From NCBI GenBank assembly GCA_013287205.1, contig JABDEE010000004.1:5001-53937 (forward strand): a stretch of 48,937 nt of DNA, given 5' to 3'. The position numbers were made by a program, and so were the translations under genes. Within the stretch, counting starts at the first letter, position 1, and each line of letters starts with the position of its first letter. The stretch is from Alphaproteobacteria bacterium. Its GTDB lineage: Bacteria > Pseudomonadota > Alphaproteobacteria > UBA9655. The notes under the pieces were generated by a model that saw only the letters and a program-made list of their open reading frames with translations, ran no database searches and was not told the origin of the DNA. Positions 1 through 48,371 of this stretch are shown here, piece by piece.

Positions 1-420
1 GAAAATAGATCCCCCCGGCTTCAAGGCTTTATAGGCGACCTTCAGGGCCACATCGATTTCATCAGGCGTTAAAAAAATGAGAAGGCGCGCAAGGAATATA
101 GCGTCAAAGGTATTCTCGGGGAGGGAGACTGTATTGGGAAAATGGCCACAGACTGTCTCTAGGTTTTGAGCTAAATGTGCAGGGCAGCTCTCCTTTAAGG
201 CGTCTAGATGGTCTTGCGCAAGGTCAATGGAGAGAACACGCCCGCCCCTTTTGAGGGCTTCCAAGGAGGCATAGCCAAAAGCCGTTCCAATATCCGCCAC
301 ATACCCCTTTGTTTTGTCGACATAATCCAAAAAGGCATCAAAGACAGGATCCTTTCGTGAAAACATAAATCCCATATTATTGACAGTTTTCATACGGTCT
401 AAAGTTTGCGTTGGATTCAT
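1..420 (-). CDS. class I SAM-dependent methyltransferase (partial, 3' end outside window)
   Basis: The first 140 codons of a minus-strand gene are visible and the frame runs off the left edge. An SAM-binding motif I (DIGTAFGYAS) lies near residues 41-50, followed by an acidic strand end (LSIDLA, near residue 62) and a later stretch reading FDAIFLARLLIFLTPDE then LKPGGSIF, which is the usual Rossmann methyltransferase order. The start at 420 opens with MNPTQTLDR. The substrate cannot be told from the visible part. A 49-bp piece of this gene, covering the residues just before and through motif I, is repeated with two mismatches about 260 bp upstream at 548-596, so this locus has been rearranged. 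Fold assignment is fairly sure; the function is open. Confidence 0.75.
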   Translation of the reverse strand, partial: MNPTQTLDRMKTVNNMGFMFSRKDPVFDAFLDYVDKTKGYVADIGTAFGYASLEALKRGGRVLSIDLAQDHLDALKESCPAHLAQNLETVCGHFPNTVSLPENTFDAIFLARLLIFLTPDEIDVALKVAYKALKPGGSIF

Positions 421-452
421 CTTTTTCTCTCATGGGTTGATTCACTTTACGA

Positions 453-496
453 GTGCCGGCAACACGTTATCTGAAAGGAATCTGGGAAACAAGGTG
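453..496. repeat. Left copy of a ~44-bp imperfect direct repeat flanking the APH-type gene
   Basis: This stretch aligns with 1467-1509 at roughly 40 identical positions, sharing the core ATCTGAAAGGAATCTG. The two copies have the same orientation and bracket the 1-kb stretch with the methyltransferase fragment and the GC-rich phosphotransferase gene. This could mark an insertion by recombination between repeats or a duplicated promoter region. No insertion-sequence ends or transposase are visible here. Confidence 0.7.
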
Positions 497-547
497 AGGA
501 TTAAGCTGTGGAGGATAGCTCCGACCGTGCAACCTTCCAGGGAAGTC

Positions 548-596
548 AATATCCACCACATACCCCTTTGTTTTGTCGGCATAATCCAAAAAGGCA
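548..596 (-). repeat. Duplicated fragment of the neighbouring methyltransferase gene
   Basis: These 49 bp match 289-337 inside the methyltransferase gene with two mismatches and in the same orientation. Translated on the minus strand the copy reads FLDYADKTKGYVVDI against FLDYVDKTKGYVADI in the gene. No other methyltransferase motif follows. I read it as the remnant of a tandem paralogue or of a local duplication that was then deleted. The 421-657 gap holds this fragment and the left copy of a 44-bp direct repeat and nothing else I recognise. Confidence 0.8.
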
Positions 597-657
597 CTTC
601 CTGCCTTGAAAATATAAATATACAAGCTAATTAAACTTCTCACTGGGGGTGTTCTGC

Positions 658-1404
658 TCAAACCCCTCGAACTTCCGCGAGCCGCTTGATGGCGAAGTCG
701 TCGTCCCAGCAGACGGCGGCTTCCCATGCGGCCGATGCTTGTGCGGCAACGTCGAACGCAACATCATCGAGACCGGCGGCATTGTGGGGGAGGACCAGGT
801 CGAGATCGGGGACGTCGGCGTGCGACTCGTCCCAGTCGATCAACCCGACCCGATCTGTGGTCATGCGGATATTGCTAGGATTCGGGTCGCCATGGACGAC
901 GCATGTCTGTCGTCCAGTTAGCCGTGTCCACGCTGCGCGGCACCGAGCAACTCCCTCAGGTGGCATCGCGCGAAGATCGATTCTTGTCCCGGTCTCGGTG
1001 TGCAAGAGGTCGGTTGATGATCGCCAGCCCGGACGCTGCGGCCACCCTTGCGTCAATCGGTGCAACTGGCGGAGCGTGTCAGCCACGCGGCGCCAATCGG
1101 CTTGCGACTCGGGACGCTCTCCCTCCACGTAAGTCATTACCACCAGACCTTCGGCGAACAGCCGGCCGTCTGTGGTCGGGATGGGAAGCGGCACGGTCAG
1201 ACCTTCACGGTCAAGATAGTGGAGGAGCTCGGTCTCCCACGCAAGATCAGCGTCACTCCTGGTGCCGAGGCGAGCAACCGCAAGATGCCCATTGACGTGC
1301 ACACGCCACACGTCGTTGGCGGCTCCGCCCGCGAGACGCTCGATGCGCGTGACATCGTCACCCCACTGCTTGAGAGTCTCCCAACTCGGCTCGATGCATT
1401 TCAT
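658..1404 (-). CDS. APH-family phosphotransferase (aminoglycoside/choline-kinase-like), probably acquired
   Basis: A 248-residue protein of the aminoglycoside phosphotransferase/choline kinase fold. The catalytic loop HGDPNPSNI and the metal-binding LIDWDES that follows are intact, and a hinge-like VVMTYVEGERP lies in the middle. It should transfer phosphate from ATP to a small hydroxylated substrate. Resistance is one option and metabolite salvage another; the sequence does not decide. The frame is open further upstream to 1566, but those residues come from AT-rich flanking DNA. The ATG at 1404, preceded by AAGAAGG, fits the family's N-terminus (IERLAGGAANDVWRV). Sampled lines are about 63-67% GC against about 42% in a sampled line of the next gene, and the gene lies between direct repeats, so recent transfer is likely. 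Confidence 0.8.
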   Translation of the reverse strand: MKCIEPSWETLKQWGDDVTRIERLAGGAANDVWRVHVNGHLAVARLGTRSDADLAWETELLHYLDREGLTVPLPIPTTDGRLFAEGLVVMTYVEGERPESQADWRRVADTLRQLHRLTQGWPQRPGWRSSTDLLHTETGTRIDLRAMPPEGVARCRAAWTRLTGRQTCVVHGDPNPSNIRMTTDRVGLIDWDESHADVPDLDLVLPHNAAGLDDVAFDVAAQASAAWEAAVCWDDDFAIKRLAEVRGV

Positions 1405-1466
1405 ATCTTTCACGGTACCTTCTTGAAAGCTGACATTCTGGCGTATCCATTTTTTGTTCTGTAGAA

Positions 1467-1509
1467 GTACCGACAACACTATCTGAAAGGAATCTGAGGG
1501 ACAAGTTGA
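1467..1509. repeat. Right copy of the ~44-bp imperfect direct repeat
   Basis: Partner of 453-496, same orientation, sharing the core ATCTGAAAGGAATCTG with scattered substitutions. It lies upstream of the start of the minus-strand APH-type gene, so it may hold that gene's promoter region. Confidence 0.7.
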
Positions 1510-1618
1510 TGCATATAAATTAAGCTTTTTGAAATGAATAAAAGGTAACCTATACCCCTCTCTCATTTTTTGAAAAAACGTGAGCGGAGGTCTAGGTCAA
1601 GCCTGAGGGGACACACAC

Positions 1619-3313
1619 ATGTCACACACCGTTTCAGATATCCTCGTCGCAACCCTCGAGCAAATAGGCGTCAAACAAATTTTTGGCCTTATTGGCGATT
1701 CATTGAACCCCCTTGCAGATTCAGTGCGGCGAAGCTCCATAGAGTGGATTGGCGTGCGCCATGAGGAGGGTGCCGCACTTGCTGCTGCAGGACAAGCCAA
1801 ACTCACGGGAAATCTTGGGGTATGTTGTGGCACGACGGGACCCGGTGGCACACATCTTGTCGCAGGGCTCTATGAAGCGGCGCGAGATCATGCACCCGTT
1901 CTCGCTATATCAGGAGGGATGCCTCGCAAAATGGAGGGAAGTGACGCCATTCAGACGACCACACCGCTCCTTCTCTTTCGCGACGTTGCCCTCTATACCG
2001 AAACAATTGCAACCGCAGAGCAAGCCCCTCACGTCATCCACCAAGCGATCGCTTCAGCCTATGCAGGGAGAGGTGTGGCCCATCTCACAATTCCTCAAGA
2101 CATCATCGGCGCCAAAGTAAGCGGTAATATGACAAGTCTCGCGACATTAAAACCGCGTTCGGAATTTACGCCTTCTGAGACGGATATTGCGGAAGTTGTT
2201 CGTCACATTGATCTTGCAGAGAACGTCGTGATTATGTGTGGCCATGGCTGCCATGGCTTGGCGGAGGAAATCCGGGCTCTTTCAGAAAAACTCAAGGCAC
2301 CCCTCATCCATTCGTTTAGAGGTAAAGAAATTATGCCTTATGATGAGCCTTGTTGGATGGGGGGAATTGGTATGATTGGCACCAAAGCCGTTTATAACGC
2401 CGTCATGAATTGCAAATTGCTTCTTATGGTTGGGACTGACTATCCCTATCCAGAGTTTTTGCCGCGCAACGGAACCGTGATCCAGATCGACGAGCGTCCA
2501 GAGGTTCTCGGACGGCGTACACCGATTGTATTAGGGGTTGTAGGATCTGCAAGACCCACTCTCAAAGTGTTGTTGGAGAAAGTGGCCACAAAAAATGATA
2601 CAAATTTCTTTCAGACAGTCTCAACGGAACGCAAGAAATGGGATGCGATGTTGAATAAGCAAGCTGATTTGGGTCGAAGCAAAGATATCATTCATCCGCA
2701 AGGAGTCGCCCGGGCGGTGAGTGATCTCGCCAAATCGAATGCTGTATATGTTATGGATACAGGTCTCAACACGCTCTGGTCCGCCAACTGGATGCAACAA
2801 AGCGGCTCCCAACCCATTATTGCGTCCTTCAACAATGCTGCTGTCGGATCAGCTCTAGGTCAAGCCAATGGGATACAAGCGCTGGATCGTTCACGCCAGG
2901 TGATTGCGCTTTGTGGAGATGGAGGCTTCAACATGTTGATGGGCGAGTTTATGACAGCGGTGCACCACAAGTTGCCGGTTAAGGTCATCATTTACAACAA
3001 TTCCTCCTTCGGATTCATTGTTTTAGAAGCGGAAAGACTTGGTTTAGCCCCTTTTCACAAAGGCATTGATTTCCCCAATCCGGATTTTGCAGCCTTCGCG
3101 CGGGCCTGTGGCGCGTATGGATTTACGGCTAAGAAACCCGATGAGTTGAAAGCGGCGATAGCCGGGGCCTTTGCCGTAGAGGGACCAGCCATTGTAGATG
3201 CCGTCATCTGTCCGACAGAGCTTCCCAACGTACCACATTTAGAATTAAAGACAGTTGGAAATTTCGCGATGGCAAAAATTAAGGAAGCCATTCTGTCTGT
3301 AACCGGGTCTTAA
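1619..3313 (+). CDS. poxB: Thiamine-diphosphate enzyme, pyruvate oxidase / pyruvate:quinone dehydrogenase-like
   Basis: A 564-residue ThDP enzyme with all three family domains. The N-terminal pyrimidine-binding domain carries the catalytic glutamate in VRHEE (residue 50) and the TTGPGGTHL loop. The middle domain (about 185-330) is of the nucleotide/FAD-binding type. The C-terminal domain has the GDG...NN cofactor motif (GDGG at 433-436, NN at 460-461). The opening VSDILVATLEQIGVKQIFG and overall length are closest to PoxB (572 residues in E. coli), which oxidises pyruvate to acetate and CO2 and passes electrons to quinone. Acetolactate synthase or another pyruvate-using relative remains possible. 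The start is supported by GAGGGG 8 nt upstream. It appears monocistronic, with rsmD 80 bp downstream. Confidence 0.75.
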   Translation: MSHTVSDILVATLEQIGVKQIFGLIGDSLNPLADSVRRSSIEWIGVRHEEGAALAAAGQAKLTGNLGVCCGTTGPGGTHLVAGLYEAARDHAPVLAISGGMPRKMEGSDAIQTTTPLLLFRDVALYTETIATAEQAPHVIHQAIASAYAGRGVAHLTIPQDIIGAKVSGNMTSLATLKPRSEFTPSETDIAEVVRHIDLAENVVIMCGHGCHGLAEEIRALSEKLKAPLIHSFRGKEIMPYDEPCWMGGIGMIGTKAVYNAVMNCKLLLMVGTDYPYPEFLPRNGTVIQIDERPEVLGRRTPIVLGVVGSARPTLKVLLEKVATKNDTNFFQTVSTERKKWDAMLNKQADLGRSKDIIHPQGVARAVSDLAKSNAVYVMDTGLNTLWSANWMQQSGSQPIIASFNNAAVGSALGQANGIQALDRSRQVIALCGDGGFNMLMGEFMTAVHHKLPVKVIIYNNSSFGFIVLEAERLGLAPFHKGIDFPNPDFAAFARACGAYGFTAKKPDELKAAIAGAFAVEGPAIVDAVICPTELPNVPHLELKTVGNFAMAKIKEAILSVTGS

Positions 3314-3393
3314 TCGCCACGTTGAAAATTTGACTTTTTCTTGAAAAAGCCCACAATGGACACAAAAGATAAAGTTTTTTGAGAGCCTAAAGT

Positions 3394-3945
3394 ATGCGCA
3401 TCATCGGCGGACAATTCAGGGGAAAAAAGATTCTCCCCGTTCTTTCGGAGCACACCCGCCCGACGGCAGATCGCACGCGGGAGATGGTCTTTAACATCCT
3501 CAGCCATAACCCTGCACTGGGCCCTCAAACAATCGTGGACAAACGGGTGCTTGATGTCTGTGCGGGGACAGGGGCCATGGGGCTGGAGGCCCTCTCAAGG
3601 GGGGCTAAGTCAGCAACTTTTGCGGAGAACAATCCTGAAAGCCTGAAGATCTTGAAGAAAAATGTTGAAGGCTTTGGGGCGGATGTGATTGCGCAGGACG
3701 CGCGGCACTTAGGACAGGCACCCCACCCCTTCGACCTTATTTTCCTGGATCCTCCCTACGGACAAGACCTGGTGAGTCCCATCCTCTCCCGCCTGTTTTC
3801 TGAAGGATGGCTGACCCCTCAGGCGGTGGTTGTGATTGAAGTCGAGAAAAAAGAAAGCGTTACCCTCCCTCCCTTTCTGTCCGTCCTCACAGAACGTTCC
3901 TCAGGACGGGCCAAGTTGATATTTGCGCGCGTGCAAGAATTCTGA
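3394..3945 (+). CDS. rsmD: 16S rRNA (guanine966-N2)-methyltransferase
   Basis: A 183-residue protein that begins MRIIGGQFRGKKI as RsmD does and carries RPTADRTREMVFNIL (about 22-36), motif I LDVCAGTGAMGLEALSRGA (about 53-71) and the N6/N2-methylase signature DPPY (119-122). It methylates G966 of 16S rRNA during 30S assembly. Length matches the family. The 3' end overlaps the convergent gene on the minus strand by 45 bp. Confidence 0.93.
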   Translation: MRIIGGQFRGKKILPVLSEHTRPTADRTREMVFNILSHNPALGPQTIVDKRVLDVCAGTGAMGLEALSRGAKSATFAENNPESLKILKKNVEGFGADVIAQDARHLGQAPHPFDLIFLDPPYGQDLVSPILSRLFSEGWLTPQAVVVIEVEKKESVTLPPFLSVLTERSSGRAKLIFARVQEF

Positions 3946-4845
3946 GTAGGATAACTTCTCCCCCCCTTCAGGATTAATCAGAAGAGAAAGGGCAAAGAGG
4001 ATATCAAGATGAGGGGATTCAACGGAAACAGTCGTCCATTTTTGGCCCTGGAGATGAATGAGAGAAAGCTCAATTTTGGATCCATGGTCCAATTGCTGAA
4101 TGTATCGCTCTTTAGACACCTGGATAGGCGTGTAGGTTTGCAAATCAAGCGGCGTGTCAGCCGTCTCTTTTTGCATGAAACAACTAATCGGCAACCCATT
4201 GTGGAGCGTGGGTTTCACATAGAGTGCCCCAGAGCGCATTTTTAAGTTAAGCCCCTCATCATTCAGAAAGTAGGTGTCTTTTTCGTGAGAGAGATGGAAA
4301 GAGGAGAGATGAAACACAGGGCCATAAAGCTGTGGAGTCGTGGGAGGCGGGTAAAAAAAACGAATCTCATAATGCGCGTGCGCCGTATGAGAAAAATGGG
4401 TCAGTAAGTGAAAAAGCTTTGCATTAAAGACCTCAACAATTTTTTTGAGATGCGGGAGGTTAGGAGAATTCTCAAGAGCCTGCAAAATCAAATGATCCAT
4501 CTTATGCTTATGAAAGGAAGGAAAAGGAGGGGACGGCTTAAGATGAAGAAGGGAAAAATATTTGAGGAATTTCTGCGGCTGACACTCAAGGCGCTTCAGG
4601 GTCTGTAACTTTTTAAGAGCAGGAAAAAGAAGATCTTTTCCATTCCAAAAATCGCCGGGCATCAGAAAGTAGTCATCAATCCGCGCGTCGTCTGTCAACC
4701 CTTCCTGTTTCGTTTGAACCAGATCCAGGAAGTCACAAGCATAAAGTCCCAGGAGAGCCATAGAGAGAGGTTTGAGCTTGATGTCATGATTGACACCCTG
4801 CAACAAAGCAAGAATATAGGCTTCCTTATAAGTTAATGGGCTCAT
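3901..4845 (-). CDS. Unrecognised conserved-looking protein, 314 residues
   Basis: I do not recognise the family. From the ATG at 4845 (AAAGGAT about 12 nt upstream) the protein starts MSPLTYKEAYILALLQG. It has no signal peptide and no clear membrane segment. The middle is rich in His, Phe and Pro (HAHYEIRFFYPPP), and the C-terminal third (GLPISCF... SVESPHLDILFALSLL) alternates hydrophobic and polar residues like a beta-rich domain. An upstream start at 4890 is open but has no ribosome-binding site. The last 45 bp overlap the rsmD 3' end on the other strand. Coding is supported by length and even composition; the function is unknown. Confidence 0.6.
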   Translation of the reverse strand: MSPLTYKEAYILALLQGVNHDIKLKPLSMALLGLYACDFLDLVQTKQEGLTDDARIDDYFLMPGDFWNGKDLLFPALKKLQTLKRLECQPQKFLKYFSLLHLKPSPPFPSFHKHKMDHLILQALENSPNLPHLKKIVEVFNAKLFHLLTHFSHTAHAHYEIRFFYPPPTTPQLYGPVFHLSSFHLSHEKDTYFLNDEGLNLKMRSGALYVKPTLHNGLPISCFMQKETADTPLDLQTYTPIQVSKERYIQQLDHGSKIELSLIHLQGQKWTTVSVESPHLDILFALSLLINPEGGEKLSYSEFLHARKYQLGPS

Positions 4846-4929
4846 GATCAATCGTATCCTTTGTAGAGTCATGAAGCATACCACGCACATTCTTAGAAAA
4901 GATTTAATTTTTTATATACATTTTTACGG

Positions 4930-4935
4930 TATAAT
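4930..4935 (+). promoter_or_regulatory. Probable -10 element (TATAAT) of the 2TM-domain gene
   Basis: A perfect TATAAT lies 29 bp before the likely ATG, in a very AT-rich stretch just upstream of a strong AGGAGG ribosome-binding site (4952-4957). The -35 region is only T-rich and shows no good TTGACA match, so the promoter call is moderate. Confidence 0.45.
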
Positions 4936-4963
4936 GCCCTTCTAGGTTAGAAGGAGGCCGTTG

Positions 4964-5266
4964 ATGATGGAAGAAGAGGAAGTTCGCAAAAAGGTGAGGG
5001 CTTTACGGAATTTTTACCGGGATGTCCTTCATTACGTTGTGATGAGCGGGGTACTGATAGGGATCTGGATCATTTTTGATAGAAGTGGGAACTTTTGGCC
5101 AAAATACGTCATTATCCTTTGGGGCCTCGGTCTTGTGCTCCTTGCCATGAATAAAGGCATCTTTTCCCTTATCTTCCCCAAGGTTTCGCTTTTCGATGAC
5201 CACTGGGAAGAAAGAAAAGTGAAAGAGCTCAAACAGCGGCTCGACGCACGGAAGGATAAGAAATAA
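4964..5266 (+). CDS. 2TM domain-containing small membrane protein
   Basis: A protein of about 100 residues with the 2TM-domain layout: a charged N-terminal helix (EEVRKKVRALRNFYRDVLHY), two membrane helices (about 25-42 and 48-66) separated by a short loop with FWPKYVI, then a charged tail containing DDHWEERKVKELKQRL. The WEERK(V/I)KEL tail is typical of this family, which is widespread and has no firm biochemical role. AGGAGG is placed 6 nt before ATG 4964 and 9 nt before ATG 4967, so either could start; an in-frame TTG precedes them. Confidence 0.75.
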   Translation: MMEEEEVRKKVRALRNFYRDVLHYVVMSGVLIGIWIIFDRSGNFWPKYVIILWGLGLVLLAMNKGIFSLIFPKVSLFDDHWEERKVKELKQRLDARKDKK

Positions 5267-5268
5267 CT

Positions 5269-5931
5269 CTACCCGTTGACAACCTTTGCAAGCGGATTCA
5301 AGGCAGCAGACACATACTGACTGACATGGGCTGTCATGAGCGGAAGAGCGTTGGTAAAGAAATGATCCGCTTCTGGCACCGTGCGGTAGTCAATGAAGAG
5401 CCCCCGCTGGGCGGCAAGCCGTTGGGAGAGTTTTTGGACAGACTCCTTAGGGACAAGCTCATCCTTTTCGCCATGGAGCATCAAACCCGGCACAGGGCAG
5501 GGGGCCAGGAAAGTGAAGTCATACAAATTAGCGGGAGGGGCAACGGCAATAAATCCGTCTAGTTCAGGGCGGCGCATGAGAAGTTGCATACAAATCCAAG
5601 CGCCAAAAGAAAAGCCAGCCACCCAACATTGACGCGGTTCTGGATTTTGGACTTGAAGCCAATCCAAACAAGCGGCGGCATCGCTGAGCTCGCCTTCTCC
5701 GCGATCAAATTTCCCCTCAGAGCGTCCAACGCCCCGGAAGTTAAAGCGCAATGTGGTAAAGCCTTGTTCAACAAAGGTACGGAAGAGGGAATAGCTCACC
5801 TTGTTGTTCATGGTGCCCCCGTGCTCTGGATGGGGGTGGAGCACAATCGCAAGTGGTGCGTTACGATCTTTTGACTGATGATAACGGGCTTCGATGCGGC
5901 CAACCGGCCCACTGATGAGAACTTCAGGCAT
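5269..5931 (-). CDS. Alpha/beta hydrolase (COG2945-like)
   Basis: A 220-residue cytoplasmic alpha/beta hydrolase. The nucleophile elbow is GFSFG (Ser108), the acid is probably Asp157 in GEKDELV and the histidine His190 in EADHFF. HPHPEHGGTM near residue 33 would form the oxyanion-hole region. The layout and length match the small proteobacterial hydrolases often annotated as dienelactone-hydrolase-like or COG2945; the natural substrate is not known. It ends 3 bp from the convergent 2TM gene, and about 100 bp separates it from wzt, so it probably has its own promoter. Confidence 0.8.
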   Translation of the reverse strand: MPEVLISGPVGRIEARYHQSKDRNAPLAIVLHPHPEHGGTMNNKVSYSLFRTFVEQGFTTLRFNFRGVGRSEGKFDRGEGELSDAAACLDWLQVQNPEPRQCWVAGFSFGAWICMQLLMRRPELDGFIAVAPPANLYDFTFLAPCPVPGLMLHGEKDELVPKESVQKLSQRLAAQRGLFIDYRTVPEADHFFTNALPLMTAHVSQYVSAALNPLAKVVNG

Positions 5932-6027
5932 AGTTTAAAACCCTTTGTTAAACAAATCCGATAAGGAGCTAACTTCTAGCAGAAAACCTTAGAATAGTCA
6001 AGTTTTATTAACATGTGTGTGCTAAAC

Positions 6028-26485: not shown

Positions 26486-26504
26486 GGGGGCGTGGCAACA
26501 ACCC

Positions 26505-27422
26505 ATGATACATCTCCCCTCCAAACTTCGCCGCTTTCTTTCCACCCCACTTTGGGCCACTGTTGCGCCCTATGGATGGGGTCTGCTCTTTTGCCTTATT
26601 CCCTTTTTGATTGTTCTTAAGATTAGCCTCTCTGAATTAAAAATGGGGCTCCCTCCTTATGGGCCGCTGGTCGAGTGGGTGGAAGAGGGCCTTCTGGTGA
26701 TTCGCTTGCACTTAGGAAATTATACGTTCATCGGAACAGATTCCCTCTATGTGCTCTCTTACCTTGAAGCCCTGACCATTGCCCTCATCAGTACTGTCAC
26801 TTGCCTTCTCATTGGATACCCTATGGCTTATGGACTTGCGAAGGCTTCTCCTTCCGTACGGGCGCCTCTGTTAATGCTGGTCATCCTCCCTTTTTGGACG
26901 TCCTTCTTGCTCCGTGCTTATGCATGGATTGGGATTTTGAGCCCCCACGGGCTTTTAAACACAGCCCTTATAAAGGTCGGATTGATTCACCAACCCCTTG
27001 TCCTCCTCGACACCCATTTTGCGACAATCTTAGGCATTGTTTATTGCTACCTCCCCTTTATGATTCTTCCTCTGTATGCTTCTCTTGAAAAAATCGACAG
27101 CTCCCTTTTAGAAGCTGCCTATGATTTAGGGGCACGGCCCTTTCAGGCTTTCTGGCAGGTTGTCGTCCCTCTTTCCTTGTCTGGGGTGATCTCAGGATCC
27201 TTATTGGTCTTCATTCCTGCAGCAGGAGAATTTGTGATTCCAGAACTTCTGGGGGGGTCTCAAACTTTCATGATTGGCAAGGTCCTCTGGAACGAATTTT
27301 TCACAAATCGTGACTGGCCTGTTGCGGCGGCTCTTGCCACCGTTCTCCTCGCTTTCCTTCTGATTCCGCTTGCGATTTTCCAACGGCTTCAGGAACGTCA
27401 GGTGAGGCTATTCAATGCATAG
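26505..27422 (+). CDS. potH: Putrescine/spermidine ABC transporter, permease
   Basis: A 305-residue inner-membrane permease with about six helices. ILPFWTSFLLRAYAWIGIL and the EAA loop EAAYDLGARPFQAFWQVV are PotH hallmarks, and the C-terminal part has AAGEFVIPELLGG. It forms the translocation pore with PotI. The nearest purine-rich ribosome-binding candidate (AGAGGGGG) belongs to the end of the upstream palindromic element, some 15 nt before the ATG. Confidence 0.93.
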   Translation: MIHLPSKLRRFLSTPLWATVAPYGWGLLFCLIPFLIVLKISLSELKMGLPPYGPLVEWVEEGLLVIRLHLGNYTFIGTDSLYVLSYLEALTIALISTVTCLLIGYPMAYGLAKASPSVRAPLLMLVILPFWTSFLLRAYAWIGILSPHGLLNTALIKVGLIHQPLVLLDTHFATILGIVYCYLPFMILPLYASLEKIDSSLLEAAYDLGARPFQAFWQVVVPLSLSGVISGSLLVFIPAAGEFVIPELLGGSQTFMIGKVLWNEFFTNRDWPVAAALATVLLAFLLIPLAIFQRLQERQVRLFNA

Positions 27423-28212
27423 GACACTCTCCCTTTTCTTGAAGATCTGGATGACCTTAGGTTATGGATTTCTCTATTTTCCCATTCTTACTCTTGTGGT
27501 TTTTTCTTTTAACGCATCCCCCCAAGTCACGGTATGGCATGGCTTCTCGACTCAATGGTATGGATCCCTCCTGCAAGATACGGTGTTAATTCGATCGGCT
27601 TTTGTCAGCCTCCAAGTTGCTGTTTTATCCGCGACACTTGCGGTTGTGCTGGGCACGCTCGCTGCCGTCTCTCTTGTGCGGTTTGGAAAATTTCGAGGGC
27701 GAGGGCTTTTTGGAATCTTGACCACGGCCCCTTTGGTGATGCCCGAGGTCATCACCGGCCTCTCGCTTCTGCTGCTTTTTGTAGGCTTAGAACAAACTTT
27801 TGGGTGGCCCAAGGGTCGAGGCATTCTCACCATTACCTGCGCCCATACCACACTGTGTATGGCTTATGTGACGATTCTCGTGCGGGAGAGGCTGGCAGAT
27901 ATGGATTTGTCCCTTGAGGAAGCGGCTCTTGATCTTGGCGCTCGGCCCTTAAAAGTTTTTACAGCCATTACCTTGCCTCTTATCTCTCCGTCCCTTGTCT
28001 CAGGATGGTTGTTGGCTTTTGCCCTCTCCTTGGATGATGTGGTTCTTGCGAGTTTCGTAGCAGGTCCCGGTTCATCCACTCTCCCCATGGTGATTTTCTC
28101 AAGCATCCGCTTTGGCATTACGCCTCAAATCAATGCCCTCGCGACTCTGATCATTACAGGGGTTGCGATGAGCGTGGGCATCGCCGGGTGGTTAATGCAC
28201 CGGCGGCGGTGA
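27415..28212 (+). CDS. potI: Putrescine/spermidine ABC transporter, permease
   Basis: A 265-residue permease with six helices and the EAA loop EAALDLGARPLKVFTAI. FSFNASPQVTVWHGFSTQWY after the first helix, TAPLVMPEVITGLSLLLLF and ALSLDDVVLASFVAGPGSSTLP are characteristic of PotI. It overlaps potH by 8 bp and completes the transporter. Confidence 0.93.
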   Translation: MHRTLSLFLKIWMTLGYGFLYFPILTLVVFSFNASPQVTVWHGFSTQWYGSLLQDTVLIRSAFVSLQVAVLSATLAVVLGTLAAVSLVRFGKFRGRGLFGILTTAPLVMPEVITGLSLLLLFVGLEQTFGWPKGRGILTITCAHTTLCMAYVTILVRERLADMDLSLEEAALDLGARPLKVFTAITLPLISPSLVSGWLLAFALSLDDVVLASFVAGPGSSTLPMVIFSSIRFGITPQINALATLIITGVAMSVGIAGWLMHRRR

Positions 28213-28361
28213 CGTTTTTATGCAATAATTTTAATTGGTTGTTAACCCTCCCTGTGATAGAGATGATGACGTACTTATTTTAAAGGATTCGACTAATTTA
28301 AATGCGCTCGTTATTGAACATCAATTTCACAGCCTCTTTCAGCGTCTGCGCGCATCTCTGT

Positions 28362-28379
28362 TGCTAGCGGCTGCTAGCA
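28362..28379. promoter_or_regulatory. Short perfect inverted repeat upstream of the symporter gene
   Basis: TGCTAGC-GGCT-GCTAGCA, 7 bp each side, about 65 bp before the ATG at 28445. It could be a dimeric repressor site or a weak hairpin. There is no T run after it. The rest of 28213-28444 shows nothing else I can name. Confidence 0.3.
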
Positions 28380-28444
28380 TATTCCCTTTTTCCCCTCACA
28401 TTTACGGCTTTTCTTCATAAACACATTTAACGATGAGGTGCACC

Positions 28445-29677
28445 ATGTGCGTTCAACATTCAAAAAAACGGCCCTCAATGGCCTTGATTTATCTTCTTGC
28501 GATTACCTTAGGGGTCATCAGCGGCTTTTCAGGCATTACGTTCCTGCAAGAGCTGGGTACCCTTACTTCCGATGTTTTTATCAAAATCTTTAAGTGCATC
28601 AGCTTACCCATTATCGCACTTTCGATCATTGTGACGATCTCTCAATATAGCGCCACCGATTCGATGAAAAAGATTTGGCAAAGCACGCTTTTTTATACGG
28701 TCGGCACAACGATCATTGCAGCCGCTGTGGCGTGTGGCCTTTACCTGCTGATCTCGCCTTCGAATATCAGTGCGGTTTCTGCGCCTATGGGGGCTGTGCA
28801 TGACTCGGTTTCGCAAACGAGTTACTTGAGCTATCTCACCCATCTTATCCCTGCGAATGTCTTCTCTCCCTTTCTCGAGCATCAAGTCATGGGGGCTCTT
28901 TTTGTGAGCATTGTGGTGGGGCTTGCCATTCGTCAGATTCCGAATGAAGAATCACGCCTTGGGATTATGGATTTCTTTAAAGGCGCCCATGGGATCTTTC
29001 TGGTGATTACGGGATGGGTCGTCAAGATTATTCCTATTGCCCTCTTTGGCTTTATTACCGCAACCATTGTTCAGTTGCGCAGTGGGGTCGATATTCGGGG
29101 CTTAGGCGGTTACCTTGCGGTTGTTGTCCTTGCCAATGTCGTCCAGGGGTTTGTGGTATTACCTCTCCTCTTACGCCGCCACAATATTCAGCCGTTTCAG
29201 GCCCTGCACGGCATGCTGCCGGCCCTCTCCGTTGCGTTTTTTTCTAAATCCTCAGCGGGAACATTGCCTGTCACGATGGAGACCATTGAGCGTAATCTGA
29301 ATGTGTCTCCTAAGGTCAGCCGGTTTGTTTTGCCGCTCTGCACGTCCATTAATATGAATGGATGCGCCGCCTTTATTTTTGCAACGGTGATTTACCTCAT
29401 GCAAAACAACGGGGCTGAGATTGATATGCTCACCATGATCTTATGGATTTTTGTTTCGACCATTGCGGCCGTTGGGAATGCAGGCGTGCCGATGGGATGC
29501 TTTTTCCTAAGCGCCAGTTTGCTCACCAGCATGAATGTTCCCATCACCCTTCTCGGTCTTATTCTGCCTTTCTATAGTTTAATTGATATGGTGGAGACGG
29601 CCCTCAATGTTTGGTCCGATGCGTGTGTGACGAAAATCATTGATGAACGCGTCAAAGACCATGAAGTGGTTGTCTAG
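28445..29677 (+). CDS. Dicarboxylate/amino acid:cation symporter (DAACS family)
   Basis: A 410-residue transporter with about eight membrane helices and two re-entrant loops. The serine-rich hairpin appears as FFSKSSAGTLPVTMETIERNL and the following substrate-site motif as TSINMNGCAAF (NMDGT in many relatives). VPMGCFFL and IDMVETALNVWSDA close the protein. It should couple Na+ or H+ entry to uptake of glutamate, aspartate or a C4-dicarboxylate; the substrate cannot be fixed. ATG 28445 has GAGG 5-6 nt upstream and is preferred to ATG 28433. Confidence 0.88.
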   Translation: MCVQHSKKRPSMALIYLLAITLGVISGFSGITFLQELGTLTSDVFIKIFKCISLPIIALSIIVTISQYSATDSMKKIWQSTLFYTVGTTIIAAAVACGLYLLISPSNISAVSAPMGAVHDSVSQTSYLSYLTHLIPANVFSPFLEHQVMGALFVSIVVGLAIRQIPNEESRLGIMDFFKGAHGIFLVITGWVVKIIPIALFGFITATIVQLRSGVDIRGLGGYLAVVVLANVVQGFVVLPLLLRRHNIQPFQALHGMLPALSVAFFSKSSAGTLPVTMETIERNLNVSPKVSRFVLPLCTSINMNGCAAFIFATVIYLMQNNGAEIDMLTMILWIFVSTIAAVGNAGVPMGCFFLSASLLTSMNVPITLLGLILPFYSLIDMVETALNVWSDACVTKIIDERVKDHEVVV

Positions 29678-33500: not shown

Positions 33501-33571
33501 GTGATCTATTTCTCCTTAGCCACACTCAATCAATAGAACCATCTTAACCTATTGCTTGTGGACATTTTCTT

Positions 33572-34816
33572 ATGACTTTATCAAACCGTAATGCCTATAC
33601 CCTGTGGGGGATAGGCGCCCTTTTTTATCTTTACCAATTCGTCCTCCGTCTTGCGCCCAGCGTGATGATGGAAGATTTGATGCGAGACTTTTCCATTGAT
33701 GCGACGGGCTTTGCGGCCTTGGGCTCCATTGCCATGCTGAGCTATTCTGCCTGCCAGATCCCCTTGGGTCTCTTTGCGGACCGATACGGAGTGCGCCGTT
33801 CGATTCTGATTTTCCTCAGCTTTTGTATTGGTGGGACGCTGATTTTTTCTCTTTCCTCCACGCTGTTGGGAGCTCAAGTGGGGCGTTTCCTCATCGGCGT
33901 TGGATCAGCAGCTGCCTTTCTGTGCACCAGCAAAATCCTTAACCATGTTTTTCCCCGAGAGAAATGTGCGACGATGTTGGGTCTCACCATGGTTGTGGGC
34001 ACCATCGGTGCCTTGAATGGGGGGTTGCCTCTCTGTGCGCTGATTAACCGAGTCGGATGGCGGTCTGCCTTGCTTATCATGTGTGGCATCGGCTTTATCC
34101 TTTTGGGAGTCGTGGCATGGTTCTTGAAAGACCCTTCTCAGCAAAAGCAAGCCAATGCCCTTTCCCTCAGCTATTCCCTGAAGCTTGTCTTTCATAAGAA
34201 GGCGTGTTGGATTTTTGCAACCACTGCCATCGGTCTTTACATTGCCATCTGTGTCCTAGGGGATCTCTGGGGGGTTGCTTTCATGATGAAGACCCATGGC
34301 ATTGAACGTGCCCTTGCAGTTGAGCTGGTCTCCACCCTCTATGTGGGACTGTGCGTGGGGTGCTTTGTCATTCCTTGGATGAGTGATCGTATCAAACGTG
34401 CAAAGCCTCTGGTTATCATCAGCATTTTGTGTCTGCTGTGTTTATTGAGTGTGCTCTTAGCGCCCATCAGCCTTCCTTTTGGGCTCTATTATCCGCTGTT
34501 TTCCCTCATCGGGTTTTTCTCAGGAGCGGAGATGCTTTGTTTTGCAGGAGCCTGCAAAGCTGTCTCCTCTTCTGTTGCCGGTCTCATCACCGGATTTATC
34601 AATGGCCTTGTCATGATGGGAGGGGCGCTTGCGCAGCAAAGCGTCGGCGTCCTCCTGGATTGGCTCTGGGCCGGAGAAAGGGGTGCAAACGGAATCAAGA
34701 TCTATACAATCTCTGATTACCGTCTCGCCCTGAGCCTCATGATACCCATTATCGTGATGGCGCTTTGCGCGTCTTTGTTTATCAAAGACACTCACCCTCA
34801 ACAAAAAGGAACATGA
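33572..34816 (+). CDS. Major facilitator superfamily transporter
   Basis: A 414-residue carrier with 12 predicted membrane helices. LGLFADRYGVRRSI between helices 2 and 3 is the MFS motif A, and VGRFLIGVGSAAAF follows in helix 4. The opening WGIGALFYLYQFVLRLAPSVMMEDL resembles MFS proteins found in Legionella, Coxiella and intracellular alphaproteobacteria, some of which take up amino acids; this similarity is from memory and the substrate is unknown. It is probably transcribed from the promoter at 33360 and co-transcribed with csaA (1 bp apart). Confidence 0.82.
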   Translation: MTLSNRNAYTLWGIGALFYLYQFVLRLAPSVMMEDLMRDFSIDATGFAALGSIAMLSYSACQIPLGLFADRYGVRRSILIFLSFCIGGTLIFSLSSTLLGAQVGRFLIGVGSAAAFLCTSKILNHVFPREKCATMLGLTMVVGTIGALNGGLPLCALINRVGWRSALLIMCGIGFILLGVVAWFLKDPSQQKQANALSLSYSLKLVFHKKACWIFATTAIGLYIAICVLGDLWGVAFMMKTHGIERALAVELVSTLYVGLCVGCFVIPWMSDRIKRAKPLVIISILCLLCLLSVLLAPISLPFGLYYPLFSLIGFFSGAEMLCFAGACKAVSSSVAGLITGFINGLVMMGGALAQQSVGVLLDWLWAGERGANGIKIYTISDYRLALSLMIPIIVMALCASLFIKDTHPQQKGT

Positions 34817-47024: not shown

Positions 47025-48371
47025 ATGCGTACACTTTTTGGAACAGACGGAATTCGAGGCCGCGCGAATGTGGCGCCCTTTACCCCTGACGTCCTGACCC
47101 GCCTGGGTCAGGCGATTGGCTCGCAATTTATGCGAGGAGACTATCGCCACAAGGTGATCATTGGAAAAGACACCCGTCTCTCCGGCTACATGGTGGAGTC
47201 GGCTCTTGCCGCGGGATTGACCTCCGTTGGCATGGATGTGACCCAGGTGGGCCCCCTGCCAACTCCTGCCATTGCCATGTTAACACGCTCCCTCGGCATG
47301 GATTTAGGCGTGATGATTTCAGCCTCCCATAACCCCTTTGAAGATAACGGGATTAAACTTTTTGGGCCCGATGGGTTTAAGTTATCCGATGAGATTGAAC
47401 GGGCGATTGAAGAGCGCCTTCTGGCACCGCCCGCCCTTGTGGAATCTTCTGCCTTGGGGCGCATGGATCATTTGTTTGAGGCTGCTGATACCTACTGTGC
47501 ATAATCTGAAAGGATGATGTGGCCTGGGGTGAACTTTAAAGGGTTGCGCATTGTCGTTGACTGCGCCCATGGCGCTGCCTACAAAGTGGCCCCTCGTGTC
47601 CTGCAAGAGCTGGGAGCTGAGATTATTCCTCTAGCTGTAAGCCCTAATGGTCGAAATATCAATGAGGGGTGTGGTGCGACCCATCCTCAGCTGATGGGCC
47701 AAACCGTGAAAGAAACAGGGGCCCATGCAGGGATTGCTTTTGATGGAGACGCGGATCGGGTCGTTTTTGCGGATGAGACGGGAACGGTTGTGGATGGGGA
47801 TCAAATCATGGCCCTCATCGCCACCACATTACAAGCCCAAGGGCGCTTAAAGGGTGCAGCCGTTGTGGCCACCCACATGTCCAACCTTGGCCTGGAAACC
47901 TATCTCGCCGAGCGGGGGCTGTCCCTCATCCGCACCTCTATCGGAGACCGCTATGTCACCGAGAGGATGCGTGCAGACGGGTATAACGTGGGGGGCGAAC
48001 AGTCAGGCCACATCATCCTTTCAGATTATGCCACTGCCGGTGATGGTTTGCTCACAGCCCTCCATGTGCTCGAAACTTTAGCCACCCAGCAGAAACCCGC
48101 AAGTCAGGTGCTGCAGGTCTTTAAACCCCTTCCTCAAATTTTGCGGAATGTACGCCTCTGTCCCTCTCTGCTAACGCACCCAGAAGCAGAAGCAGTTGTG
48201 GCCCAAGCTCGCACGCTTCTTGGGACAACAGGGCGCCTTCTCATTCGTCCCTCAGGAACCGAACAGCTCTTACGGATTATGGCAGAAGGAAGTGATGAAA
48301 CCACCACCCGGGAGGTGGTGGACGCAATTGCCGACGCATTGCTTCTCTGTGCAAAGCAAGGGGTGGCTTAA
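47025..48371 (+). pseudogene. glmM: Phosphoglucosamine mutase interrupted by an in-frame TAA
   Basis: The frame encodes GlmM in two parts. Codons 1-159 hold [11 protein letters not shown], the phosphoserine site [14 protein letters not shown] (Ser101) and the first domain. Codon 160 is TAA (47502-47504). From codon 161 the same frame goes on (GVNFKGLRIVVDCAHGAAYK, metal site DGDADR at about 240-245, GGEQSGH, RPSGTEQLLRIM) to 48371. Alignment from memory with E. coli GlmM needs no gap, and the stop sits where Phe is found there. GlmM converts glucosamine 6-phosphate to the 1-phosphate for UDP-GlcNAc and is normally essential. Re-initiation at ATG 47514 or 47517 after GAAAGG could give two fragments. 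It may be a point mutation, split gene, read-through or sequence error. Confidence 0.85.

Follow-up and report, generated by a model that had tools for sequence, protein, structure and literature searches.

The question raised by this locus is how a GC-rich gene for a small-molecule kinase came to lie between two direct repeats, beside a piece of a methyltransferase gene, and what its product may do. We analysed a stretch of 48,937 nucleotides (the window; positions 5,001 to 53,937 of contig C4) from an alphaproteobacterial assembly of 946 kb in 46 contigs, which is 63.7% complete. Our answer, which we consider likely as a whole, is that a horizontally transferred GC-rich kinase gene of the APH fold is present twice in this genome, that its intact copy lies where a tandem duplicate of a methyltransferase gene has decayed, and that it would encode an antibiotic kinase.

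Gene and protein

The kinase ORF is intact and occupies positions 658 to 1413 of the minus strand, with a GTG start at 1413, a stop at 658-660 and 251 codons for amino acids. An alternative ATG at 1404 gives a form of 248 residues, the length given in an earlier note on this DNA. We consider the GTG the more likely start because a Shine-Dalgarno-like stretch (AAGAAGGT) precedes it and because this start is common to the two nearest relatives, those of an uncultured alphaproteobacterium (L082) and of Legionella anisa (L055). The leader with the Shine-Dalgarno-like stretch and the start codon (1403-1437, minus strand) is identical to that of L082 at 32 of 35 bases, and around the GTG the window agrees with L055 at 12 of 13 bases.

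The protein is a further member of the known APH kind; the Pfam profile, the motifs and the predicted fold agree on this, as the earlier note had proposed. In its ATG-start form it matches Pfam PF01636 (APH) with 77 bits against a cut-off of 23.2. The hallmark of the APH superfamily is a catalytic HxDxxxxN loop plus a second metal-binding Asp, and both are present in the motifs HGDPNPSNI and LIDWDE. The AlphaFold2 model (pLDDT 80.6, pTM 0.77; some loops below pLDDT 70) showed the APH fold, with a Foldseek match to 6sui at E 9.2e-9 and a Z score of 15.1 to 6ef6 over 240 residues (rmsd 4.2).

Origin of the gene

The composition of the kinase gene is foreign to its surroundings. Its GC content is 62.8%, against a mean of 47.8% (sd 0.053, maximum 0.560, as fractions) in the 42 other window ORFs of at least 150 amino acids outside the kinase region, so that the contrast with lower-GC sequence noted before is borne out. 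The GC3 is 68.3%, against a mean of 0.481 and a maximum of 0.617 in the same ORFs. Codon usage, which had been suggested as a check, points the same way less sharply: the score of -1.266 is about 2 sd under the background mean (-1.149, sd 0.057), but the lowest background gene scores -1.310, and the kinase is thus unusual yet inside the background range. Contaminating high-GC DNA, brought in by an assembly or binning artefact, would also give such an outlier, and the fragmentation and incompleteness of the assembly (46 contigs, 63.7% complete) would allow for it. However, the sequence in which the kinase is embedded has a lower GC content and includes remnants of the methyltransferase. Moreover, contig C13 carries a second copy, similar in its 3' flank, near ffh, and the Ffh protein encoded there is 80% identical to those of the two genus relatives compared. 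We regard an artefact as highly improbable.

In searches at E <= 1e-30, this genome gave the only kinase match among 17 genomes of its order and the only match to the full-length gene among 385 genomes drawn evenly from its class. Likewise, the L. anisa genome was the only one with a kinase match among 45 of its genus; Legionella gresilensis (L022) also has a homologue of the family and evidently lies outside those 45. A scan of GTDB contigs, which was built on peptide patterns from the window protein and thus favours close relatives, yielded 71 loci of the family at 67-90% identity in Actinomycetota, Chloroflexota, Pseudomonadota, Myxococcota, Acidobacteriota and others. The nearest relatives found are L082 (90% identity) and L. 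anisa (86%), both in AT-rich genomes, and several other phyla have homologues that are further removed (67-84%).

The trees of these sequences are incongruent with the relationships of their hosts. In the protein tree (71 rows), the window kinase, L082 and L055 form a clade with a support of 100/99, and these three are joined at 100/98 by the broken C13 copy in the tree built on DNA (72 rows); the bootstraps of both trees were not settled. The deeper branches are weak, with 36 of 68 inner branches in the protein tree and 32 of 69 in the DNA tree below 80, and the phyla are mixed. By comparison, the identity of Ffh between this genome and that of L082 is 57%, and between this genome and that of L. 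anisa 50%. The L082 value lies below the 67-80% of four genomes of the same family and within the 51-61% of six genomes from other families of the class (a seventh had no match). Accordingly, kinase copies that are 86-90% identical are found across an uncultured alphaproteobacterium, a Legionella and this genome, although a housekeeping protein is only 50-57% identical among them.

Horizontal transfer of the kinase gene into this lineage is strongly supported by these sequence comparisons. Vertical inheritance with loss elsewhere could be argued from the homologues in Rhizobium, Bradyrhizobium and Inquilinus, the named alphaproteobacterial carriers. However, these lie outside the clade that unites the window kinase with Legionella, this genome stands alone among the 385 of its class, and the gene is an outlier in GC content. 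The earlier note had named a vertical placement within the alphaproteobacteria as what would speak against acquisition; it is contradicted by the trees, by the searches of the order and the class and by the Ffh comparison, and we consider it scarcely credible.

Regarding the donor, the proposal of a high-GC source holds in so far as the gene is foreign and stems from a high-GC gene pool. The immediate source itself may not have been a high-GC organism, because the nearest relatives occur in AT-rich genomes, one of which shares the 5' leader. In the AT-rich hosts L022, L055 and L082, the GC content of the family gene is 0.52-0.64 and that of its flanks 0.35-0.39. Judging from genome size and GC content, this bacterium and the L082 organism may both be host-associated. 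In an excerpt of one report (PMC3220658), genes that may have been exchanged between intra-amoebal bacteria include one for a protein of the aminoglycoside phosphotransferase family (COG3173). A literature search returned no description of the present family, which is weak evidence of absence.

A second kinase copy lies on contig C13 (L018:4897-5265). It matches only positions 633-1032 of the window and is broken, in that the N-terminal part is missing and the match is split over two frames. The two copies share the 25 bp that follow the kinase stop in the window (633-657, minus strand): 19 of 25 bases are identical, against 12 of 25 in the best of the 71 other members, and none of 100000 shuffles reached this value. 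The far end of this flank on C13 consists of the last codons of an adjoining GNAT acetyltransferase gene, which occurs only in this genome among 15 of its genus. C13 also carries ffh near the kinase copy, the gene whose product was compared above with those of two genus relatives. As sisters, the two kinase copies have a support of 94/41, which is not firm; the pairing therefore leans on the shared flank. We consider that the kinase probably entered once and was then copied within the genome, possibly with C13 as the source and C4 as the target. Because the support of the pair is only 94/41, a single source may also have supplied both copies in separate imports.

Insertion site

The direct repeats that bracket the kinase are real and wider than had been noted. 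The cores at 452-497 and 1466-1509 are 82.6% identical over 46 columns, and a gapped alignment widens them to 437-507 (copy A, the upstream region of the methyltransferase) and 1454-1526 (copy B, upstream of the kinase). Both are read on the minus strand, in the same orientation, and they are imperfect (15% diverged). Their local alignment scores 68, whereas none of 2000 single-base shuffles scored above 40. The 17-bp core of the repeat occurs only at these two window sites in the 63.7% complete genome, even when 2 mismatches are allowed.

The methyltransferase itself is a class I SAM-dependent enzyme (Pfam PF13649, 50.7 bits), of which the 5' part lies at 1-420 on the minus strand and the rest runs past the left edge of the window; its closest homologues, 53-60% identical, are found in 4 of 14 genus relatives. 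A 49-bp near-identical piece of this gene had been reported within the bracket. It is present, with 96% identity over 50 bases (547-596 against 288-337), but the duplicated segment is larger and degenerate: when a 10-bp gap is admitted, it extends over about 73 bp (547-619, minus strand, against 288-370) and represents nucleotides 51-133 of the gene with a 10-bp deletion. This piece lies on the 3' side of the kinase and repeat B on its 5' side. Along the coding strand, repeat B comes first, followed by the kinase unit, the methyltransferase piece, a spacer of 39 bp, repeat A and the start of the methyltransferase.

This layout is best read as the result of a tandem methyltransferase duplication whose second, decayed copy would have received the kinase. 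If there were two tandem copies, each consisting of the upstream region and the methyltransferase, and the kinase replaced the start of one of them with the remainder being deleted, the observed order would result. One duplication would suffice to account for both duplicated segments, which have diverged alike (8/73 in the methyltransferase piece against 10/66 in the repeats, Fisher p 0.61). Taken by itself, the narrower piece reported before shows less divergence than the repeats (2/50 against 10/66, p 0.066). A search of positions 498-546 for C-terminal remnants of the methyltransferase gave no convincing match. The idea that the repeats carry a promoter was also considered and dropped: a single sigma-70-like site was found in 300-1750, inside the methyltransferase, against a shuffle mean of 0.9.

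Recombination between the repeats, or integration by a single crossover of a circle that carried a piece of the methyltransferase, would make the repeats the product or the cause of the insertion instead of an older duplication. The repeats do bracket the kinase unit, their core is found nowhere else in the assembly, and integration would likewise yield a tandem duplication. On the other hand, the remnant is degenerate (10-bp gap, 8/73 mismatches) and the repeats are 15% diverged, and therefore the duplication is not recent; the core is also missing beside the C13 copy. We consider this course rather unlikely. Accordingly, of the earlier proposal of a repeat-mediated acquisition by means other than a standard insertion sequence, the second part stands and the first is revised, because the repeats are better explained as the regions that preceded two methyltransferase copies in tandem.

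An insertion sequence or transposon that carries cargo has terminal inverted repeats and a transposase. No inverted-repeat pair of at least 16 nt with one arm on each side of the kinase was found in window positions 1-6000, and a scan of seven window ORFs revealed no transposase domain. The kinase had no match in phage records or, by peptide patterns, in viral contigs, and PADLOC assigned it to no defence system. Arrival on a transposon, integron or phage with ends that have since become unrecognisable would accord with the presence of the family on 45 plasmid records (10 of them predicted to be conjugative; 43 of the 45 in Rhizobium, Ensifer, Shinella or Sinorhizobium), but considering the absence of these features from the sequences searched, we judge it very unlikely. 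We thus regard insertion into the decayed methyltransferase copy as the better reading, and the locus as an evident, though not very unusual, instance of gene transfer into a bacterium whose genome is small. It documents the spread of a resistance-type kinase gene without recognisable mobile-element ends.

On the other side of repeat B, a gene on the plus strand (1619-3313) encodes a ThDP enzyme resembling pyruvate oxidase or quinone-dependent pyruvate dehydrogenase (NCBIfam PRK09124, 544.8 bits, below the cut-off of 792). At E <= 1e-60 it occurs in this genome only, of 15 in the genus, and was probably acquired too. For an empty site, we compared the neighbourhoods of the methyltransferase, pyruvate-oxidase and RsmD genes, using 7 of the 13 relatives that carry RsmD and all 4 in which the methyltransferase has a close homologue. 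The 7 relatives lack a pyruvate-oxidase, kinase or methyltransferase gene upstream of rsmD; in 4 of them, a DoxX-family gene takes this place. The genes upstream of rsmD differ in these relatives, and therefore the block in the window looks lineage-specific. Searched against 53 loci of relatives (237 kb), the flanks at 421-657 and 1414-1618 matched nothing at an E value below 0.043. Accordingly, the genus relatives examined offer no empty site at the nucleotide level; they have other genes at this place.

Elsewhere in the window, glmM (phosphoglucosamine mutase, an essential gene; 47025-48371) is broken by an in-frame TAA at 47502-47504. The sequences on either side of this stop each match the glmM model, without a change of frame between them. 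The interruption could reflect decay, a sequencing error or a split gene. A strong negative AT skew, to about -0.33, was seen at 26501-29500 and 33501-34500, where the genes look by eye like those of membrane proteins.

Putative function

The kinase protein is under purifying selection. Its dN/dS is 0.115 against L082 and 0.09-0.12 over four hand-picked pairs of the window kinase, L082, L055 and L021, and therefore the protein is maintained, now or until recently. The L082 copy has an in-frame TGA close to its N terminus and may be decaying.

The fold searches returned antibiotic kinases (amicoumacin, spectinomycin, macrolide and corramycin) as well as metabolic kinases (homoserine, aminopropanol and N-acetylhexosamine). 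The predicted fold gives no substrate, because both groups match at 10-20% identity. Among the named APH classes, only the APH(9)-Ib model was matched, with 20.2 bits against a cut-off of 675.

Neighbouring genes at two loci bear on resistance. In L082, the next gene is divergent and resembles APH(9)-Ia (394.5 bits against a cut-off of 680; L082:3747-5729), and in L055 a class D beta-lactamase above its cut-off lies 3.4 kb from the kinase copy; these are two cases. When the neighbours of all 71 loci are clustered, an SDR-type cluster (10 loci) and one of ABC transporters (6 loci) are the largest, and no pathway is seen; both are large families and therefore uninformative on resistance. The cluster lists include shadow ORFs, and the small clusters across phyla are known from single Pfam scans. 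One such cluster (L067:449-1081, also L026, L072 and L080; four phyla) consists of small P-loop kinase-like genes near the APH gene, identified as AAA_18 by the scan of L067 alone, and may reflect chance or shared mobility.

We consider phosphorylation of a natural-product antibiotic the most likely function of the kinase. A metabolic or salvage kinase, similar to those of homoserine, thiamine, amino alcohols or sugars and acquired by the same transfer, is a possible though less favoured reading. It draws on weak profile matches to the models of thiamine kinase (TIGR02721, 21.2 bits against a cut-off of 299.45) and KDO kinase, and on the homoserine kinase 2ppq, which ranks high in the fold searches and is the only structure with a sequence match at E <= 0.001. 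However, all five NCBIfam matches of the protein are far below their cut-offs, the presence of the family is patchy, and even the largest cluster of neighbours covers just 10 of the 71 loci.

Within the family, the catalytic loop itself varies. Among 72 members (the window kinase and the 71 loci, L019 to L089), 55 have HGD, as does the window protein, 16 have HGN, in which Asn replaces the catalytic Asp, and 1 has HSD. The loop is one residue longer in 15 of the 16 HGN members, against 4 of the 56 others (Fisher p 5e-11, with kinship ignored). The HGN members are spread over the tree, and the best tree (71 rows) requires a minimum of 13 changes of catalytic state; the true number may be lower, because 36 of 68 inner branches have a support below 80. 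Five HGN pairs, picked by hand and with one member used in two pairs, showed purifying selection with dN/dS of 0.10-0.26, and therefore the HGN members look functional. In an excerpt of PMC10730852, the exchange D189N abolishes the activity of Cph001, and Cph is described as acting via phosphorylation plus sequestration. The family could thus be a mobile protective protein with two catalytic states, one with HGD, in which Asp serves as the general base, and one with HGNPNNPGN, in which Asn and a longer loop would bind or sequester the ligand, or carry out other chemistry, instead of phosphorylating it. These states would have been interchanged many times with the rest of the protein conserved. 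We hold this wider proposal to be quite doubtful. If the Asn-bearing cousins do protect without catalysis, the family would allow the modification of a drug and its sequestration to be compared in natural proteins that are almost alike.

Proposed course of events

We infer the order of events at the locus as follows. The GC-rich kinase gene would have entered the lineage horizontally as a short unit that comprised the ORF, its ribosome-binding leader and a few flanking bases. The copy on C13, beside the GNAT acetyltransferase gene, would have lost its N-terminal part and broken, and the intact copy would have settled in the decayed second copy of the tandem methyltransferase duplication. The flanking repeats would then be the two upstream regions of that duplication. 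With its HGD..N and IDWD residues intact, the kinase most probably phosphorylates a hydroxyl group of a natural-product antibiotic.

Comparison with known enzymes

With the APH family (PF01636), the window protein has in common the profile match, the HGD....N and IDWD residues and the predicted fold. It differs in being shorter (251 amino acids) than most of the matched structures and in reaching the cut-off of no named subfamily. The spectinomycin phosphotransferase APH(9)-Ia is a fold match (3i0o, E 1.3e-7), and a homologue of it adjoins the L082 copy; however, the window protein is only 13% identical to APH(9)-Ia, which is not among its five NCBIfam matches. The amicoumacin kinase AmiN is the top Foldseek match (6sui), with an identity of 19%. 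The capreomycin phosphotransferase Cph is likewise distant: the Cph001-D189N structure (8i8g) is a fold match with 20% identity. Whereas Cph001-D189N has Asn, the window protein retains Asp.
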